Part shown: positions 53,620 to 62,520 of the stretch, in pieces
Layout of the letters: each line of letters begins with the position of its first letter
Position numbering within the stretch: the first letter of the stretch is position 1
Notes under the pieces: model-generated
The model's input: only the letters and a program-made list of their open reading frames with translations
Databases searched by the model: none
Told to the model about the DNA's origin: nothing
From: Gammaproteobacteria bacterium
GTDB taxonomy: Bacteria; Pseudomonadota; Gammaproteobacteria; Ga0077536
Assembly: GCA_016209015.1 (NCBI GenBank)
Contig: JACQWY010000032.1
Coordinates: 103,427 to 167,426 of the forward strand
Length of the DNA: 64,000 nucleotides
Direction of reading: 5' to 3'
Position numbers and translations under genes: made by a program

Positions 53620-54312
53620 TCACTCGTGCATTCGCTTCTGCATGGACTCGAGCAACCCCAGGAATTTGTCGCTCGTCATGTTGAATCGCTTGGTGCCCTC
53701 CACCGCGTACACCGCGTCCGCGGGGGTGTCTTTGGCGATGAACGCGTTCGCGCCGACATAGTTGCGTTCGCCGATCTTCACGAAATTCGAAACCGTACAG
53801 TTCACGCCGAGGAACGAGTAGGCGCCCACCGTCACTTCGCCCGCCATGCACGCGTGGGATGACAACCATGCATGATCCTCGATCACGCATTGATCACCGA
53901 TCTGGCACGCCGACCAGATCACCACATTAGTGCCGATCCGGACATCGTGATTGATGGTGTTGTTCTCGAGGATGAAGCAGTTCTCGCCGCAACGCAGTTC
54001 GTCGTGGGTGGAGACTTTGGAGCTCACGTAGCTCGCACATTCGTAGCCCTTGTTCTTGACGGCCGAGAACTTCTCCGCGCGGAGCTGGTTCATACGCTGG
54101 AAGCCCAGAGGCACGAACATCAGATATTCGGAAGGCGGAAACTCACTCTCGACGTTCGCGAAATCGACGAGCGGCAAGCCTCTGAACGCGGCGGCTGCCA
54201 AATAATCCTTCTCCACGGTGAAGCCGCAGACTTCATGCGCGCTGTCATTGGTGAAATAGCGCGCCGCGACGTCTGCACCCCGCCCGCATCCGAAAATGAT
54301 CACTTTCGCCAT
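53620..54312 (-). CDS. Sugar acyltransferase, NeuD/PglD type
   Basis: 230 residues. An N-terminal Rossmann-like part (KVIIFGCGRGADVAARYF) precedes a left-handed beta-helix of hexapeptide repeats (ENCFILENNTINHDVRIGTN, GEVTVGAYSFLGVNCTVSNF). Such enzymes N- or O-acylate amino sugars with acyl-CoA; here it may transfer an acyl group to the WecE product, although an ACP-linked donor would be unusual for the family. ATG 54312 has GAGGA at seven bases. Confidence 0.82.
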   Translation of the reverse strand: MAKVIIFGCGRGADVAARYFTNDSAHEVCGFTVEKDYLAAAAFRGLPLVDFANVESEFPPSEYLMFVPLGFQRMNQLRAEKFSAVKNKGYECASYVSSKVSTHDELRCGENCFILENNTINHDVRIGTNVVIWSACQIGDQCVIEDHAWLSSHACMAGEVTVGAYSFLGVNCTVSNFVKIGERNYVGANAFIAKDTPADAVYAVEGTKRFNMTSDKFLGLLESMQKRMHE

Positions 54313-54370
54313 TCGCACTTCCTCGACTGCTTCACGCGATACTGTCGTCGGGTTGACGGTCCGACGCCGT

Positions 54371-55534
54371 TCATCTGCAAATGAGGTGGTTCCACTTCAC
54401 GCAGCTGCGGCCGGATGCCGTCAGGCGGCGCGCGAAAGCGTCCTGACTGTATGGATTGACGCCGAGCACCAGCAGCAGCCGTTCGTCCGCCTCGGCGAGC
54501 GAGGCGAAGTCCACGACCGGACGGCCCTGAAATTCGCCTGCGCCACCGTCGATGACGCAGGCCGCGACTCGCGCCCAATAGTCCGGGCAGTAAGCAGCGA
54601 GCAGCATGCTCCAGGTACTCGTGCCGAAGTTGAGTACCCTCGCGAAGCCTTCGCTCGAACGCACGAGATAGTCGCTGCACTCGGAGTAGGATGCAACGTA
54701 GCGGCAGCGCAGCGAATAGAGCGCGGCAGGATCCACGCGCGGGGGGTCCGGTTCGCCCCCGCTCGCCGACGGGCGCGAGAATACCATCAGCTGCTTGTCG
54801 CGAATGGAGTCGACCGCCGGAGCAGCTTGCCAGCGTCGTGGAACGAGGCCCGCCTGACGGCCGAGCGCGGCGAGGTGCTCCGGCGTGAACGAGTAGTTTT
54901 GATCGCTGAACATGAACTCGGCATTCGGCACCGCGGCGTCGGGACAGACGATGACCAGGACGCCGCCGTCGCTGAGGCTTCCGGCCAGTACCTGCAGGAA
55001 TTCGCGGGGATTCGCCGTGTGCTCGAGCACGTTCGTGGAGTAGACGAGATCGTAGGACCCAAGCAGGGACAGGCGCTCGTCGACTTTCGCCGTGATGACC
55101 GGGAATCCGGCACGACGCGCGTTTTCGCTTTCCTGCTCCGAGGGCTCGATGCCGTCGAATCGGGCGCCCGGCAGGTGTTTCCGCATCGCCGCCATCATCC
55201 AGCCGCGACCACAGCCCGCGTCGAGCACGCTGACGGGCTCCTGGCCACCGATCGCATCGGTGATCCACCGAGCCATCGCCGCATAGCGCGGCCGGTCGTA
55301 GTTCGCGGCCCCCGGGCGCTCGTAAAAGCTGTACTGGCGTTCGTAGAAATCGGTTCGCGCCAGGTGGCGCATGCCGACCCGCTGCAACAGACCGCAACCA
55401 CGGCAGTGCGCTTTCGACAGCGGTTCGTGCACGAGTCGGCCCGCTGTGGTCATTGAGTGGCTCCAGGGTGCCGGAATCATTTCGAAGTCCAGGCCACCGC
55501 ACACGACGCAACCTGTCTCGGATACGGGATTCAC
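54371..55534 (-). CDS. C-methyltransferase-type SAM enzyme with zinc domain
   Basis: 387 residues. CVVCGG and CRGCGL form the N-terminal zinc domain (PF08421), followed by motif I LDAGCGRGWMMAAM, VYSTNVLEH, and a C-terminal domain (NFGTSTWSMLLAAYCPDYWA) as in NDP-hexose C-methyltransferases (PF08484). The GTG start overlaps the stop of the GT2 gene by four bases (GTGA). It could add a methyl branch to a sugar, but action on another cluster intermediate is possible. Confidence 0.8.
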   Translation of the reverse strand: MNPVSETGCVVCGGLDFEMIPAPWSHSMTTAGRLVHEPLSKAHCRGCGLLQRVGMRHLARTDFYERQYSFYERPGAANYDRPRYAAMARWITDAIGGQEPVSVLDAGCGRGWMMAAMRKHLPGARFDGIEPSEQESENARRAGFPVITAKVDERLSLLGSYDLVYSTNVLEHTANPREFLQVLAGSLSDGGVLVIVCPDAAVPNAEFMFSDQNYSFTPEHLAALGRQAGLVPRRWQAAPAVDSIRDKQLMVFSRPSASGGEPDPPRVDPAALYSLRCRYVASYSECSDYLVRSSEGFARVLNFGTSTWSMLLAAYCPDYWARVAACVIDGGAGEFQGRPVVDFASLAEADERLLLVLGVNPYSQDAFARRLTASGRSCVKWNHLICR

Positions 55535-56493
55535 GATTTCACCTGCTCCTCGATGGCCCGCGGCGCGACATTTCCATGCAGCCGCCTCACGATCGTGTAG
55601 GGACGTCCCTTGGTCTCGATGAATATTCTCGACACATAGAGGCCGACCACTCCGACGCTGAAAATCCCCAGGCCGCCCAGGATCCAAACCGAGACCATCA
55701 CCGAGATCCAGCCCGCGAGCGAACGGCCGGTGAAGTGCAGGACGACGAGATAGGCCGCGAAGACCAGCGACGTGAGGAGTATCGCGAGGCCCAGGAAAAA
55801 GATCGCGAACAACGGCACCTCGCTGAACGACGTGATGCTGTCGAGGAGCATGCTCAGCCGCCCCAGCAGTGTATAGCTGCTCACCGGCCGCTGGCCTTTG
55901 ACGAACTCCACGCCATGCTGCCTGAATCCCGTGATGACCCAGAGGCCGCCGATCGCCGTCTTGTTCTCCTTGTGCTGAACCAATGCATCGACATAAGTGC
56001 GCGTCATGAGCCGCACTGTGCTGTGATTGTCCGGCACGTGAATCGGGAGCATGAAGTTAATCATTCGCCAAGCCAGGGCGCCGCTCACCTGCTCCCACCA
56101 TCCGCCCTTGCGCCGCCGTTGATAGCCGTAGACCACGTCCCAGTTTTCCGCTCGCATGCGCTCGTAAAACAGTCCCAGCAGCTCGGGGGGTTCTTCGAGA
56201 TCGATGTCGATGAGGAATACGAACTCGCCCCTGGTGTGGCAGAGCCCCGTCATCATGGCTTTGTGATGGCCGAAATTCCGCGAGAGTTCGACGACACGCA
56301 CGTGGGGATCACGGGCAACGACACCGAGCGCGACATCGAGTGCATTATCCGGCGATCCGTCGTCGACCAACACGATCTCGTACTCGGAAGTGATCTTTCG
56401 TGCCTCCGAAGTGATCCGCGCGCAGAACTCTTCGACGTACGCGGCGGACTTATAGAGAGTCGCAACTACGGAGAGCGTGGGGGTGTCGCTCAT
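55531..56493 (-). CDS. GT2 glycosyltransferase (GtrB/DPM1-like)
   Basis: 320 residues. GT-A catalytic domain with LVDDGSPDN, DIDLEEPPELL (metal site) and YGYQRRRKG, then two C-terminal hydrophobic segments (about 225-290) as in polyprenol-phosphate sugar transferases. It probably loads a sugar onto undecaprenyl phosphate at the inner membrane. Both ends overlap neighbours by four bases (methyltransferase downstream, adenylation enzyme upstream), so the genes are co-translated. Confidence 0.88.
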   Translation of the reverse strand: MSDTPTLSVVATLYKSAAYVEEFCARITSEARKITSEYEIVLVDDGSPDNALDVALGVVARDPHVRVVELSRNFGHHKAMMTGLCHTRGEFVFLIDIDLEEPPELLGLFYERMRAENWDVVYGYQRRRKGGWWEQVSGALAWRMINFMLPIHVPDNHSTVRLMTRTYVDALVQHKENKTAIGGLWVITGFRQHGVEFVKGQRPVSSYTLLGRLSMLLDSITSFSEVPLFAIFFLGLAILLTSLVFAAYLVVLHFTGRSLAGWISVMVSVWILGGLGIFSVGVVGLYVSRIFIETKGRPYTIVRRLHGNVAPRAIEEQVKS

Positions 56494-58031
56494 GAAGCGT
56501 ATTCCCGTTTCAGCGCCGGGCGATCCGTTTTCCCGTTCGCGTTCTTCGGCAGCGCGTTCACGAAGTGGATTTTCGTGGGCAGCATGTACTTCGGCAAGCG
56601 CATGCCCAGCATCCGCCGCACGTCCGCGGTTCGGAGCGCGCACCGGCTTGCCACGACGGCGATGAGTTCCGACATTTCGCTCTGCTTGCGATGCAGCACC
56701 GCCGCTTCGTCGACTCCCTCTATGTCCAGAAGCGCGTGCTCAATCTCTTCGAGCTCGATGCGGTAGCCCATGTGCTTTACCTGCAGGTCTCGTCGTCCGA
56801 CGAAGTGCAGCTCGCCGGTGTGCGGATCGCGCCGAACCAGATCGCCGGTGCGGTAAAAGATTTCACGAAAGTCGGCCTGCAGCGGATTCTGGACGAACGC
56901 GACGGATGTGAGGTCGGCGCGGCCGAAATAGCCGAGGCCGACGCAAGGACCACCGAGGAACAGCTCGCCACACTCACCGGGCGCGACAGGCTTCCCGTCA
57001 TCGAGCACGAGTTCCGAGAAATGGTCGGCAAGGCGTCCCAGCATCGGAATCCCATCCAGGTCAATGAAATCCGATTCACCCAGCAGCCGCGAGGAGCAGA
57101 TGCAAGTGCACTCGGTGGGGCCGTAGACGTTGTGCAGCTCGGTGCCCGGGGTCATTTCGTCGAACAACGCCTTTAGCTTCACTTTCGGAAAACCCTCACC
57201 ACCGAAAATTATCCGACGCAGCGGGCCGAGCGCGGCGCGCGTCGCGAGCTTCGTGACCTGCAGGAACATGAGGAGCGAAGGCACGGAGAACCATGTGGTA
57301 CAGGCGGTCGCACGGACCCGGGCGGTCAGAGCAAACGGGTCCTGCACGGTAACCGCGTCGAACGGCACCAGGGTTCCACCGGTGAAAAACGTCGAATAGA
57401 TGTCGAAAACCGAGTTGTCGAAATACAGTGGGTTCAGATGTGTGTGCACGTCGTCGGACCGGAATCCATAGGCCTCCCGGAGCCACGCAATAAAGTGCAG
57501 GAGATTGTCATGGCTGATCGCCGCGCCCTTCGGTGTTCCGGTCGATCCGGACGTGAACATTACATACGCCGGCGTGGCACCTGTAATACCGCGAGGTTCT
57601 TCGATCGCCGCGTCGCTCGCCGTCGCACAGAACGCCGGCATGCGTTCGACCGGATCGCAGTCGACTGCCGGGATTCCGCCGACCGCCGAGCCTTCGCCCG
57701 AGGCGAATACGATACTGGGTCGGCACTGCGCGAGAATGGCATCGCGGCGGCTAGCTGGATTGCGGGGATCCAGAGCGACGTACGGCGCCCCGAGCTTCAC
57801 GGCCGCGAGCATCAGCGCATAGGCGGCCGGCGACTTCTCAAGAGCGATCGCGATGCGGTCCCCGGTCCGGATCCCGCGGTCGATCAGAAATCGCGCGGCG
57901 CGATTAGCCAGGCGATCGAGATCCACGTAACTGAGCTGCAAAGCGTCGTCGAAATAAATCGCCCGACGTTCGCCGTGGACCGCGACGACTTCCGCAAACG
58001 CCCGGCCAATACTGCATGCTTCTAGCCCCAT
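56490..58031 (-). CDS. Stand-alone adenylation enzyme (DltA/NRPS A-domain-like)
   Basis: 513-residue ANL-superfamily enzyme that activates a carboxylic or amino acid as an acyl-adenylate and loads it on a carrier protein. Core motifs: MFTSGSTGTPKGA (A3), YGPTECTC (A5), YRTGDLVRR (A7), GRRDLQVKHMGYRIEL (A8) and NANGKTDR with the catalytic Lys (A10). No condensation or thiolation domain is fused; the free ACP encoded three genes upstream is the likely acceptor. Substrate code not deducible by eye. Confidence 0.85.
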   Translation of the reverse strand: MGLEACSIGRAFAEVVAVHGERRAIYFDDALQLSYVDLDRLANRAARFLIDRGIRTGDRIAIALEKSPAAYALMLAAVKLGAPYVALDPRNPASRRDAILAQCRPSIVFASGEGSAVGGIPAVDCDPVERMPAFCATASDAAIEEPRGITGATPAYVMFTSGSTGTPKGAAISHDNLLHFIAWLREAYGFRSDDVHTHLNPLYFDNSVFDIYSTFFTGGTLVPFDAVTVQDPFALTARVRATACTTWFSVPSLLMFLQVTKLATRAALGPLRRIIFGGEGFPKVKLKALFDEMTPGTELHNVYGPTECTCICSSRLLGESDFIDLDGIPMLGRLADHFSELVLDDGKPVAPGECGELFLGGPCVGLGYFGRADLTSVAFVQNPLQADFREIFYRTGDLVRRDPHTGELHFVGRRDLQVKHMGYRIELEEIEHALLDIEGVDEAAVLHRKQSEMSELIAVVASRCALRTADVRRMLGMRLPKYMLPTKIHFVNALPKNANGKTDRPALKREYAS

Positions 58032-58044
58032 CCAGCCTTTCCGA

Positions 58045-58794
58045 TCAGAGCGTCAATCCGCCGTCCAACTCGAGAACCTTGCCATGGAAATAGTCGTTCT
58101 CGACGATGAAGCGGAGCGCGTGATAGAGATGCCGCAGTTCTCCGAGGCGTTTCAGCGGGATCGACTTTCTGAGCTTGTTCAGCGCATCTTCCGACACTGC
58201 GGCTCTCGTCGATGCCGTGTCGAAGAAGCCCGGGGCGAGCCCGGCAACGCGTACACCGAACGCACCCAGTTCCTTGGCAAGGGTCATGGTCAACGCGTTG
58301 ACGCCGGCCTTGGCGGCCGAATAAGCCGCTTGTCCGACGTTGCCGACCGCGCAAATCGAACCGATATTAATGATGACGCCGGGACGCCGGTTCTCGACCA
58401 TGGCCCGGGCGGTTCGTGCACTCACGACGAAAGCGGAGTTGAGCGTCGCGGCGATCACCTCGTTCCAGGCGCCGAGATCGTGGGCCTGCAGCCGTCCGTC
58501 CCGAAAGGCGAGGACCGGCGAATTGAAGATATATCCGGCGTTGTTGATCACCACGTCAAAAAGCCCGGCCGCCGAAGCTTCGGTCAGTACCTGATCGAGA
58601 GCCCCAGGGTCGGTGACGTCGCATCGAGCGAAGTGCGGCGACGGGCCGTCCCAAACCGTCGCCGGCAACCCATCGAGGCGCACGTCCAATCCGAGCACTT
58701 CGTCACCGTCCTCGCTGAATCGCTCGACGAGATACCGCCCGATGCTACCCCCGGCTCCGGTGATCAGAATGCGGCGATGCTCGCCGGGGTTCAT
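58045..58794 (-). CDS. SDR oxidoreductase of the acyl-group module
   Basis: 249 residues: TGAGGSIG (12-19), NNAG (84-87), Ser146, Tyr158 and Lys162 (YSAAKAG). It resembles FabG-type ketoreductases in length. Its ATG overlaps the ACP stop codon by four bases, and the adenylation gene follows 13 bp later, so it probably reduces an ACP-bound acyl group, giving for instance a hydroxyacyl unit. That substrate is an inference. Confidence 0.83.
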   Translation of the reverse strand: MNPGEHRRILITGAGGSIGRYLVERFSEDGDEVLGLDVRLDGLPATVWDGPSPHFARCDVTDPGALDQVLTEASAAGLFDVVINNAGYIFNSPVLAFRDGRLQAHDLGAWNEVIAATLNSAFVVSARTARAMVENRRPGVIINIGSICAVGNVGQAAYSAAKAGVNALTMTLAKELGAFGVRVAGLAPGFFDTASTRAAVSEDALNKLRKSIPLKRLGELRHLYHALRFIVENDYFHGKVLELDGGLTL

Positions 58795-59021
58795 GGGGAG
58801 AGTCCGCGTGACACGAGGAGCTGCTCGAGGGCGGCCACTGAAGTGATGGACTGAACTTCGTCCGGCGTCAGATCGACCTCGAATTCGGCTTGGATCCCGA
58901 CGACGAGCGCGACGTACTTGAGCGAGTCCCAGTCTTCGGAATTGCTGAATTCGCCGATCGCGATGACTTTCTCGAGCGGTTCGTCGAATACGCCTTCAAT
59001 ACACTTTCGCAATCGATGCAT
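58791..59021 (-). CDS. Acyl carrier protein
   Basis: 76-residue free-standing carrier. NSEDWDSLKYVALVVGIQ contains the phosphopantetheine serine Ser33 in the DSL motif, with acidic helices around it. It is not the fatty-acid ACP (whose gene would sit with fabD/fabF) but a dedicated one for the adenylation enzyme. It is the second gene of the block after wbqC-like, 129 bp downstream of it. Confidence 0.9.
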   Translation of the reverse strand: MHRLRKCIEGVFDEPLEKVIAIGEFSNSEDWDSLKYVALVVGIQAEFEVDLTPDEVQSITSVAALEQLLVSRGLSP

Positions 59022-59150
59022 ACGGGGTTCCCAAGTCTGCGGGGGCGACGGGGGCGGACTCGCCGCGGCAATGCACCGAGAAAACCTGCCCGCCAAAACG
59101 ATTTGGGATTATAAACAAGACTTCGGAATGGAGACACCCGGCGGGCTGCC

Positions 59151-59855
59151 TCAAGCTGGCCGAGAGTACTTCATGTAGCTGCCGGCATCCGGGCCGGTGT
59201 TCAGGAGAAGGTCCAGTATCGAGACGCCATGCTCGAAGGGCGCATGGAGCTGGGAATACTCTCGATAGCCCGAATAGTCCATGTAGGCCACGTCGATACC
59301 ACGTGCAGCGAATTTCGATTCGTCGAGATAGGATTTCGCCGCCGGCCCCGACAGATAGACCGTGCCCCCGAGCGCCTCGCAGACCTCGACGAGACGGTCT
59401 GTCTTGTCGCCCGTTTCCGTTGCGCCATACGCGCTCGACCACGACAGGCGCGTCCCGATGTTCAGCACCCCGGTGATTGCCGACAGGAAGCGATAATTGA
59501 CGCGCGACAAAAGGTCCTCGCGGCAGCCCAGATAAAGATCCTCGAGCAGATCGCGATACGCATGAAAAAAAGGCGCCTTGGCATAGTTGTGGCGCAGCGT
59601 CGCCCAGTGCTGTCGTGCCCAGTTCGGATCGCTGATCCGCGTCTCGTCGATCCGCTGGAAATATTTGCCTTTGACCGTCACCGGGATTGTGAGCCAGGCC
59701 AGACCGGCCGGCGTCTTGATCATGTTGCGGTTGCGCCAGTCCCGCCGCGTGTACTGGACTTCATCGTAGAGGACGAATTCATCGACTAGGCCGATGAGAT
59801 CGAAGTAGCCCTTCCAGGGAACGTAGTTGGACTGAACGATCGCTATCCGTTTCAT
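59151..59855 (-). CDS. WbqC-like family protein
   Basis: 234 residues of PF08889 (WbqC). The opening IAIVQSNYVPWKGYFDLIGL and YDEVQYTRRDWRNRN with GLAWLTIPV are family hallmarks; the family occurs in O-antigen and capsule clusters and is thought to act in acyl or amino-acid transfer, though its mechanism is not settled. It is the first gene of the minus-strand glycan block and may transfer the ACP-bound group to the amino sugar. Confidence 0.88.
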   Translation of the reverse strand: MKRIAIVQSNYVPWKGYFDLIGLVDEFVLYDEVQYTRRDWRNRNMIKTPAGLAWLTIPVTVKGKYFQRIDETRISDPNWARQHWATLRHNYAKAPFFHAYRDLLEDLYLGCREDLLSRVNYRFLSAITGVLNIGTRLSWSSAYGATETGDKTDRLVEVCEALGGTVYLSGPAAKSYLDESKFAARGIDVAYMDYSGYREYSQLHAPFEHGVSILDLLLNTGPDAGSYMKYSRPA

Positions 59856-60167
59856 GGCATCCCGGTGCTGGCTCTAAGTCTTAAACACGGCGGCGCCGTA
59901 TCAGGAACGCCGGGCCGGTGCCGGCAGATCACACGTGAATCTTCGCGCGACGCAGAGTGCACGCGCGATTGCTGCCAGAGCAGGTGGCGCATTCTACACG
60001 CGGTCCGGGAGCGGTGCGCGATTGCCGGGAAGACGAGCGCGGCTGGGGGACATACCTTCCCTGGTTAGACTAACTAAACAGCGGGGGGCATACATCTCGC
60101 GCATGCGCCAATCTGCCGTCTACGCTGGCATTTCCGTACCGCACATTGGTAAAAGGAGAACCTCTAG
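59856..60167. other. 312-bp gap upstream of the secreted pair
   Basis: Divergent region between the wbqC-like gene and the first secreted-protein gene. It contains GGTTAGACTAACTAAAC near 60062 and becomes AT-richer toward 60150. No gene; probably holds both promoters, none convincing by eye. Confidence 0.4.
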
Positions 60168-60659
60168 ATGCAAGTCTCGTCCAGAGTTTGGGCCGCTGGC
60201 CGCAGGGCGGCGATCGCAGCAATTTTAATGATTAGTGGATTCACTCATGTCGAGGCCGCCGGTGTAGTGCTGTTTACAAACACCTGCCCGGCACAGTCGC
60301 AAACGTCTCAGGTCGTCAAGGATGGCGTTCAAGCGATAAAGGACGCTGTCGACGCCGGCTACTCCATTAGGATTTCGCAAAGTGACGGAGCCGGAGCCGT
60401 ATGGTACGAGGAGATCGTTGCATTGCGGCTCTTGAATGGACCTTCAACCTATTTAGCGAGCGGCCTGCTTACCGTCCAGCCACCTCAAGATGGGAACGGC
60501 GTGCCGATTTGGAAAAACGGCTTCTTCATGGCAAGTGTGAACACCCAAGGTGACTATAGGTGGGGGCAATACTTGTTCGGTTCTGACACTTGGGGCCTAA
60601 GCTCTGCATGGCCTGTGTCCACATCAACTTGCATTGTAACCACTTGGTACAAGTACTAG
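60168..60659 (+). CDS. Secreted protein of an unrecognised family, member 1
   Basis: 163 residues: signal peptide of about 30 (RAAIAAILMISGFTHVEA), then a mature part with NTCP near its start, VKDGVQAIKDAVDAG, NGPSTYLAS, KNGFF, GQYLFGSDTWG and CIVTTW at its end. The two cysteines could form one disulfide. AAGGAG precedes ATG by nine bases. Base composition is clearly less GC-rich than neighbours. It is paralogous to the next gene; function unknown. Confidence 0.75.
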   Translation: MQVSSRVWAAGRRAAIAAILMISGFTHVEAAGVVLFTNTCPAQSQTSQVVKDGVQAIKDAVDAGYSIRISQSDGAGAVWYEEIVALRLLNGPSTYLASGLLTVQPPQDGNGVPIWKNGFFMASVNTQGDYRWGQYLFGSDTWGLSSAWPVSTSTCIVTTWYKY

Positions 60660-60741
60660 TTCGACTAACCGACAATGGCATGGGTCCGTGATCACCTTTT
60701 GCCGTTGTGTCCGGTTTGACTCGGACTAAGTAGGGAGCGCT

Positions 60742-61227
60742 ATGTTTATGAAGACCATCCATTTCGCTTTCGGGGCAATCGTTCTTCTCGTCAGCTTCTC
60801 ATCCCGCGCGCAGACGCCCGTTAAGCTTTTTGAGAACACGTGCCCGACAACGCAGCAATCGCAGCAATCGATTCAGACTGGTATCCAGGCCATACAAAAC
60901 GCCGTAACTGATGGGTCAAGAATCCACGTTTCGATGGTCGATCAGGACGGCGCACACTATTTCGCAGAGATATCTGGAATACGCGTCGTCGTGAACGGCC
61001 CCGGAAGTGTTTACTACGCAAGCGGCGTCCTCCCAATGCGGCCATACATTGACGGTGCGCCAAATCTGGTATCCAAGAATGGCTGGTTCGTTGGGGGAGT
61101 CGATACGAACGGCCTTTACTATTGGGGTGGCTATCTGTTCGGCACAGACACCTGGGGGACGAGCACCGCGTCGTCGAATGCAGCGACCCAGTCCGGTTGT
61201 TTCGTCACGACATGGTGGGCTCAGTGA
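60742..61227 (+). CDS. Secreted protein of an unrecognised family, member 2
   Basis: 161 residues with signal peptide (FAFGAIVLLVSFSSRAQ). The mature part follows the first member motif by motif: NTCP, IQTGIQAIQNAVTDG, NGPGSVYYAS, KNGWF, GGYLFGTDTWG and CFVTTWW. GGGAG lies four bases before ATG 60742 and ten before the in-frame ATG 60748, so the start could be either. It follows member 1 by 82 bp, so the two look like a tandem duplication. Function unknown. Confidence 0.75.
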   Translation: MFMKTIHFAFGAIVLLVSFSSRAQTPVKLFENTCPTTQQSQQSIQTGIQAIQNAVTDGSRIHVSMVDQDGAHYFAEISGIRVVVNGPGSVYYASGVLPMRPYIDGAPNLVSKNGWFVGGVDTNGLYYWGGYLFGTDTWGTSTASSNAATQSGCFVTTWWAQ

Positions 61228-61322
61228 AATAGCGCGGACACCGTTCGAAGATGATCAAGTGATTAACCAAGCGGGGCGACGCACCTGCATCGTCGAAGTC
61301 CCGCGCTCGGTCCCTCCGGGGT

Positions 61323-62138
61323 TCAGGCATCCCGGCGACGCAGCGCTCCCAATGAAACCATCCCGGAGCCGAGAAGCCAGACTGCCGCGGGAAGCGGCAC
61401 GGTAGCCGGGGTGGGTGCATAGTCGAGCACCACATTGTCGAAGAACGCTTCGGTGCGATTGGACGACTCGGTCGAAGCCGTGGACAGCATTATGCGCAAC
61501 GCCTGACCAAGGAATGGATTCGCGGCGCCGCTGTCGTAGGCCAGAGTGTCGGTTCCGAAAGAGTCGGGCCCCAGATTCAGACCATCGCTCGAGGAAGCCA
61601 ACAGTTCGCTGCCCGCGAACAGTTGGAGCGAATAATCGAAGGTGGCACTCAGCAGGCGCCGGCCTACGTTCACGTGCAAGTTGTAGGTCATATTCGGGAG
61701 AAGTACGTCGCCCAGAACCTGCGAGAGGCTCGTCACGTCACCCGAGCCGAAGGTTTGAACATAACCGAGGTTGTCACCGGTCCACCACTTTGTGGTCCAG
61801 TTCGGGGCGCCGAGATTCGGAGAGAAAGCACCCGCCGCACCATTATTCGTCAGGGAGATCGCGGTCCAGTCCGCGAGCGATCCAAAACTGACCTGCCCGC
61901 CCGCGATCACCTGGCTATACGGTCCGTTGCCGATATTGAACGCGAGGTTCGCGACTTCGAATGATGGGTTGAGCAGCGGCGCGAATGACTGCGCCGGGGT
62001 GACCAAACCACGGATGCCCGGCCTGGAGAAGCTCGAATCAGCTGCGGGCGCGGTCGGCGCCAACGCCAAACCGTACGCGAGCGCCACACAGGCGCCCGCC
62101 GCGCCGGGCGCCCGATAAAAACTGGTAGTGACTTTCAT
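61323..62138 (-). CDS. Surface protein with VPLPA-type C-terminal sorting signal
   Basis: 271 residues: signal peptide (ACVALAYGLALAPTAPA), a beta-rich jelly-roll-like domain (LLNPSFEVANLAF, WTTKWWTGDNLGYVQTFGSG, RTEAFFDNVVLDYAP) and the tail VPLPAAVWLLGSGM followed by a hydrophobic helix and RRRDA. It would be cleaved and anchored or released by an exosortase. The jelly roll suggests carbohydrate binding, perhaps to the surface glycan. Convergent with the secreted pair. Confidence 0.82.
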   Translation of the reverse strand: MKVTTSFYRAPGAAGACVALAYGLALAPTAPAADSSFSRPGIRGLVTPAQSFAPLLNPSFEVANLAFNIGNGPYSQVIAGGQVSFGSLADWTAISLTNNGAAGAFSPNLGAPNWTTKWWTGDNLGYVQTFGSGDVTSLSQVLGDVLLPNMTYNLHVNVGRRLLSATFDYSLQLFAGSELLASSSDGLNLGPDSFGTDTLAYDSGAANPFLGQALRIMLSTASTESSNRTEAFFDNVVLDYAPTPATVPLPAAVWLLGSGMVSLGALRRRDA

Positions 62139-62520
62139 CCCTTGTCCTCACTGGTTCCATACGCCTTTGCAGAAAACCCCGGAGCGCCGAGGGCCGAATC
62201 ACGCCACGCAAGAATGCAAATAAGTGTTTCGTACTCCTCATGATGCGGAGGTGTCAAGGCAAGCGACGGACAACGGGCGGGAACCCACCCAATTTTGCAA
62301 TGGACTAGCCGAAAGGAGCTTCCGATGTCCGCTCCGGCCCGAAATCAAACCGCATTCAGCGGTCGAGCGGAAGGGAGCAAATCACTGCACGCGTGCGTGC
62401 GGCGCCACCAACGGTCCGGGCAAGTTCCCGTCTGAAGCGTTGGATGCGAATCGGAATTTTCCGCGGCTCCGGAGCAAGGTTTACAATACGTCGCTGGATT
62501 CTCCACCGCGATCGATTCCC
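62139..62520. other. 382-bp region upstream of the DAHP synthase gene
   Basis: A short open frame at 62325-62435 (36 codons, ATG with AAAGGAG at good spacing) lies here, but its translation is not enriched in aromatic residues. A TTCCGC-17-TACAAT pair (62459-62487) could be the aroG promoter. No other gene is visible. Confidence 0.4.
62459..62487 (+). promoter_or_regulatory. Candidate promoter of the DAHP synthase gene
   Basis: TTCCGC (62459-62464), 17 bases, TACAAT (62482-62487); start codon at 62521. The -35 match is weak. Confidence 0.35.

Follow-up and report, generated by a model that had tools for sequence, protein, structure and literature searches.

Two diverged tandem genes for putatively secreted proteins of no recognised family in a gammaproteobacterial genome

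Within a 64,000-nucleotide stretch of a gammaproteobacterial genome (hereafter the window), two adjacent genes were found that encode putatively secreted paralogues. The pair is taken, from comparison of the two copies, to be an old tandem duplication under selection at the protein level. Judged by their sequences, the two products are lineage-restricted orphan secreted proteins within the collections searched, and they belong to no recognised family or system and carry no role in the public family libraries. Orphan secreted proteins make up a large unexplained share of bacterial genomes, and this pair offers a clean small case, in which the two copies have diverged, each has two cysteines and clear motifs, and surface genes adjoin the pair.

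The gene pair and its divergence

The initial annotation had described a tandem pair of genes, and both ORFs were confirmed at 60168..60659 (+) and 60742..61227 (+). The first, secreted paralogue 1, encodes 163 aa with a predicted signal peptide at approximately residues 1–30, and an AGGAG sits 9 nt ahead of its ATG. The second, secreted paralogue 2, is listed with 161 aa and a predicted signal peptide at approximately residues 1–23. However, its second ATG (60748) is the more likely start because it is better spaced from a GGGAG, and the product would then be MKTIHFAFGAIVLL. Ribosome-binding sites were recognisable from the sequence upstream of both ORFs. As the intergenic gap of 82 bp (60660..60741, +) showed no terminator-like site, co-transcription of the two genes is likely.

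The description of the products as paralogous was borne out by BLASTP, which gave 44% identity over 151 aa (E 1e-35). The mature parts reached a Smith-Waterman score of 288 against a mean of 32 for 2,000 shuffles (sd 5.9, maximum 64), which is 43 standard deviations above the shuffles. All of the motifs previously listed for the pair, namely NTCP, G(I/V)QAI, NGP, KNG(F/W)F, YLFG(S/T)DTWG and C(I/F)VTTW, occur in both products in the same order. At the nucleotide level the mature parts are 51% identical between the copies, with identities of 57, 65 and 31% at the first, second and third codon positions, respectively. Synonymous sites are saturated (dS), with a dN of about 0.54, and the protein motifs have been kept despite this saturation, which argues for an old duplication and for selection on the protein. 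Between the copies, conservation is highest at the first cysteine (0.70), followed by the KNG..DTWG hairpin and the last strand (0.62 each), whereas the signal peptide and loops are poorly conserved.

It could be argued that these are chance ORFs in AT-richer DNA, as relatives outside the source genome were not found in the searched collections. This has next to no probability given the 44% protein identity with saturated synonymous change, the ribosome sites and the signal peptides, and it is ruled out by the codon-position pattern. On this sequence evidence both ORFs are considered genuine, diverged coding genes.

Both N-termini show, by inspection and hydropathy, a hydrophobic core followed by an AXA-like cleavage motif, with putative cleavage sites at VEA|A in paralogue 1 and SRA|Q in paralogue 2. 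This agrees with the earlier designation of the products as secreted, and it is plausible that both are Sec-exported. Each protein contains exactly two cysteines, at positions 40 and 155 in paralogue 1 and 34 and 153 in paralogue 2, and both are conserved, as had been noted previously. The mature parts are acidic (pI 4.7–5.0), consist of aromatic residues to 12–13% and lack any transmembrane-like stretch in either copy. In both copies the C-terminus (TTWYKY and TTWWAQ) follows directly after the last strand, and the signature of a PEP/VPLPA-CTERM sorting signal (motif, hydrophobic stretch and basic tail) is absent from it. No conserved His and no apparent Ser catalytic set were seen in the two copies; conserved Asp/Glu residues are present in both, so an enzyme is still conceivable.

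Genomic setting

The pair lies in less GC-rich DNA, as the initial annotation had reported, with GC contents of 53.9% and 54.7% for the two ORFs against 66.1% for the window. The genes around it, at approximately 57–62.5 kb, are mostly of 59–63% GC, and within this moderately AT-richer stretch the pair has the highest AT content. Such a composition is compatible with acquisition of the pair from elsewhere. It was also observed that positions 57000–62500, covering genes of the glycan-type cluster to the left of the pair and flanking genes, mostly of 59–63% GC, may represent an acquired surface island. A mobile-element reading of the site was rejected: the window gave no tRNA or Rfam match, and no repeats of note were seen near the pair.

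To the left of the pair lies a glycan-type cluster (53620–59855, −) with genes for a hexapeptide transferase, a methyltransferase, a family 2 glycosyltransferase, an AMP-binding ligase, a short-chain dehydrogenase and WbqC. Its first gene, encoding a WbqC-like protein (59151..59855, −), is the divergent neighbour of the pair, which lies on the opposite strand from the cluster and outside its transcription unit. It should also be noted that a short ORF at 58791–59096 (−), beside the genes for the AMP-binding ligase and the short-chain dehydrogenase, encodes an acyl carrier protein-like product that had no Pfam match at E 1e-5. To the right, the convergent neighbour encodes an HpiC1-like protein that carries a VPLPA-CTERM sorting domain (61323..62138, −). 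This gene was not found in any of the 35 further genomes of the family, and for this reason the site looks like a variable surface-related locus in which the pair would be transcribed from its own strand. The WbqC-like and HpiC1-like neighbours are regarded as context only, and any functional link to the pair is putative.

Search for relatives, families and folds

Profile searches of roughly 1,500 distinct genomes, in samples that overlap, found no relatives of the pair outside the source genome, which was itself searched for further copies. Homologues were not found in 58 genomes of relatives, in any of the 36 genomes available for the family (the order has no others available), in 369 genomes across the class and 399 across the phylum, or in two sets of 362 and 367 genomes drawn from the phyla to which two loci titled Phycisphaerae and Mycobacteroides belong. 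Searches of plasmid and phage collections with tblastn also found none. A genome collection of 84,980 species and a viral collection were scanned with peptide or DNA patterns, which reach only relatives keeping the chosen motifs, and gave no credible homologue. Matches to the pattern aromatic-x-FG-x-(D/N)TWG in the viral and species-genome collections were attributed to chance, as none aligned credibly beyond the motif, and viral contigs gave no match to two other patterns or to a query with one of the proteins. A small number of weak genome matches (L005–L007 and L055) were likewise treated as chance; one (L007) is an unrelated lipoprotein-like ORF, and another (L055) contains a stop and lies in a different frame, being antisense or out of frame relative to a kinase-like ORF. 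The initial annotation had held that a lack of homologues anywhere would count against its reading, and within the collections searched the only homologues were the two copies themselves. As records of or near the source genome may be missing from these collections, and the genus was not otherwise represented among the relatives, the result is that no relative was found rather than that none exists.

The suggestion of an unknown family was upheld, with no credible match in family libraries or among solved structures. Neither copy gave a match above the curated cut-off in Pfam or NCBIfam, or any match in PHROGs, and the weak family matches differ between the copies and cover local stretches only. 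One of these, to PADLOC PDC-M02B (ORF2, E 0.0012), involves mainly the signal peptide and helix, is absent for ORF1 and was taken as chance. The same was concluded for a local resemblance of ORF2 over approximately 90 residues to alpha-glucan phosphorylase (TIGR02094), which scored 18.4 bits against a cut-off of 191.7, matched a 600-position enzyme model in part and had no counterpart in ORF1. A sequence search of the PDB returned antibody, MecR1 and similar entries, all at chance level. AlphaFold models were of low confidence, with a mean pLDDT of 56 from the two-sequence alignment and 42 for ORF1 alone. The order of elements is nearly identical in both models, with a strand, a helix and further strands, the last of them right after the second cysteine. 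The domain is therefore likely to be strand-rich with a single main helix, and no named fold is assigned to it. A Foldseek search with the weak model gave no match below E 0.06 in the PDB or BFVD.

Possible roles of the pair

The reading that is tentatively preferred, and which is possible but well short of probable, is that the two genes encode small soluble exported binding proteins, perhaps glycan-binding, derived from the old tandem duplication. Both proteins would be exported by Sec and fold into one compact domain, for which the models weakly suggest an initial strand followed by a single amphipathic helix and about six more strands. A disulfide would close the domain by joining the cysteine that directly follows the first strand to the one that directly precedes the last strand, and the conserved aromatic KNG(F/W)F...YLFG(S/T)DTWG hairpin would form the functional surface. 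Outside the cytoplasm such a protein may act in soluble form and bind, most likely, a glycan or another ligand of the envelope. The two copies may have diverged in specificity. A glycan is suggested as ligand because of the location of the pair and its aromatic content. The initial annotation had suggested that the pair may be an undescribed secreted or surface-adhesive module. The signal peptide, the many aromatic and Gly/Asn/Ser/Thr residues and the surface-sorted neighbour fit an adhesive module, but an anchor, sorting signal, repeat or adhesin-like domain was not found in either protein, and an adhesive role is a guess. It is rather unlikely that the pair founds a domain family whose fold or ligand-binding mode is new, used at the surface or in the extracellular matrix of one small lineage. 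A new fold or ligand would make the pair an addition to the catalogue of domains; on present evidence it is an ordinary orphan secreted pair and one more lineage-restricted case.

Inhibitors of hydrolases are generally small and strand-rich, with disulfide-type cysteines and tandem diverged copies. The size, cysteines, strand-rich prediction and tandem divergence of the pair would suit secreted inhibitors of this kind, acting on a protease, a lysozyme or another hydrolase, that were duplicated and diverged for different targets, a role that is doubtful as no inhibitor family was matched in Pfam or NCBIfam and no target gene was identified adjoining the pair. Genes for antagonism are commonly orphan, low in GC and duplicated, as is this pair, and a protein secreted against competitors or prey could have been kept in two variants. 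With no toxin family matched in Pfam or NCBIfam, and neither an immunity-like partner nor a delivery domain recognised beside the pair, this was considered improbable.

The binding-protein reading was also set against VirK (PF06903), of which the pair could be distant members or analogues. VirK shares with the pair its small size, a signal peptide and a layout in which a helix ending in Gly is followed by strands, with a cysteine near the C-terminus. However, no VirK was found among Pfam matches up to E 10 (Pfam cut-off 23.7 bits), and the family model found none in the source genome at E 1e-5. An hhalign comparison between the pair and three VirK proteins, a weak test with such small profiles, gave a probability of 0.1% (E 0.46). 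Pairwise scores against VirK proteins fetched by family search were no better than shuffles in five of six comparisons, with the sixth equalled by 10% of shuffles. Moreover, the first cysteine precedes the helix in the pair and follows it in VirK. There is thus no significant sequence or profile similarity, and membership, which is not supported, is very improbable. VirK is nonetheless a useful precedent, as a small signal-peptide protein that leaves the cell through the Out type II secretion system in Dickeya (PMC9007343). SvfA and SvfB (DUF4879), small secreted proteins of Dickeya with variable copy number and patchy distribution (PMC9007343), resemble the pair in manner of occurrence only, with no Pfam match of the pair to DUF4879. 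One VirK homologue (L053), which was left out of the VirK alignment, carries an in-frame TGA and is apparently a decayed gene copy.
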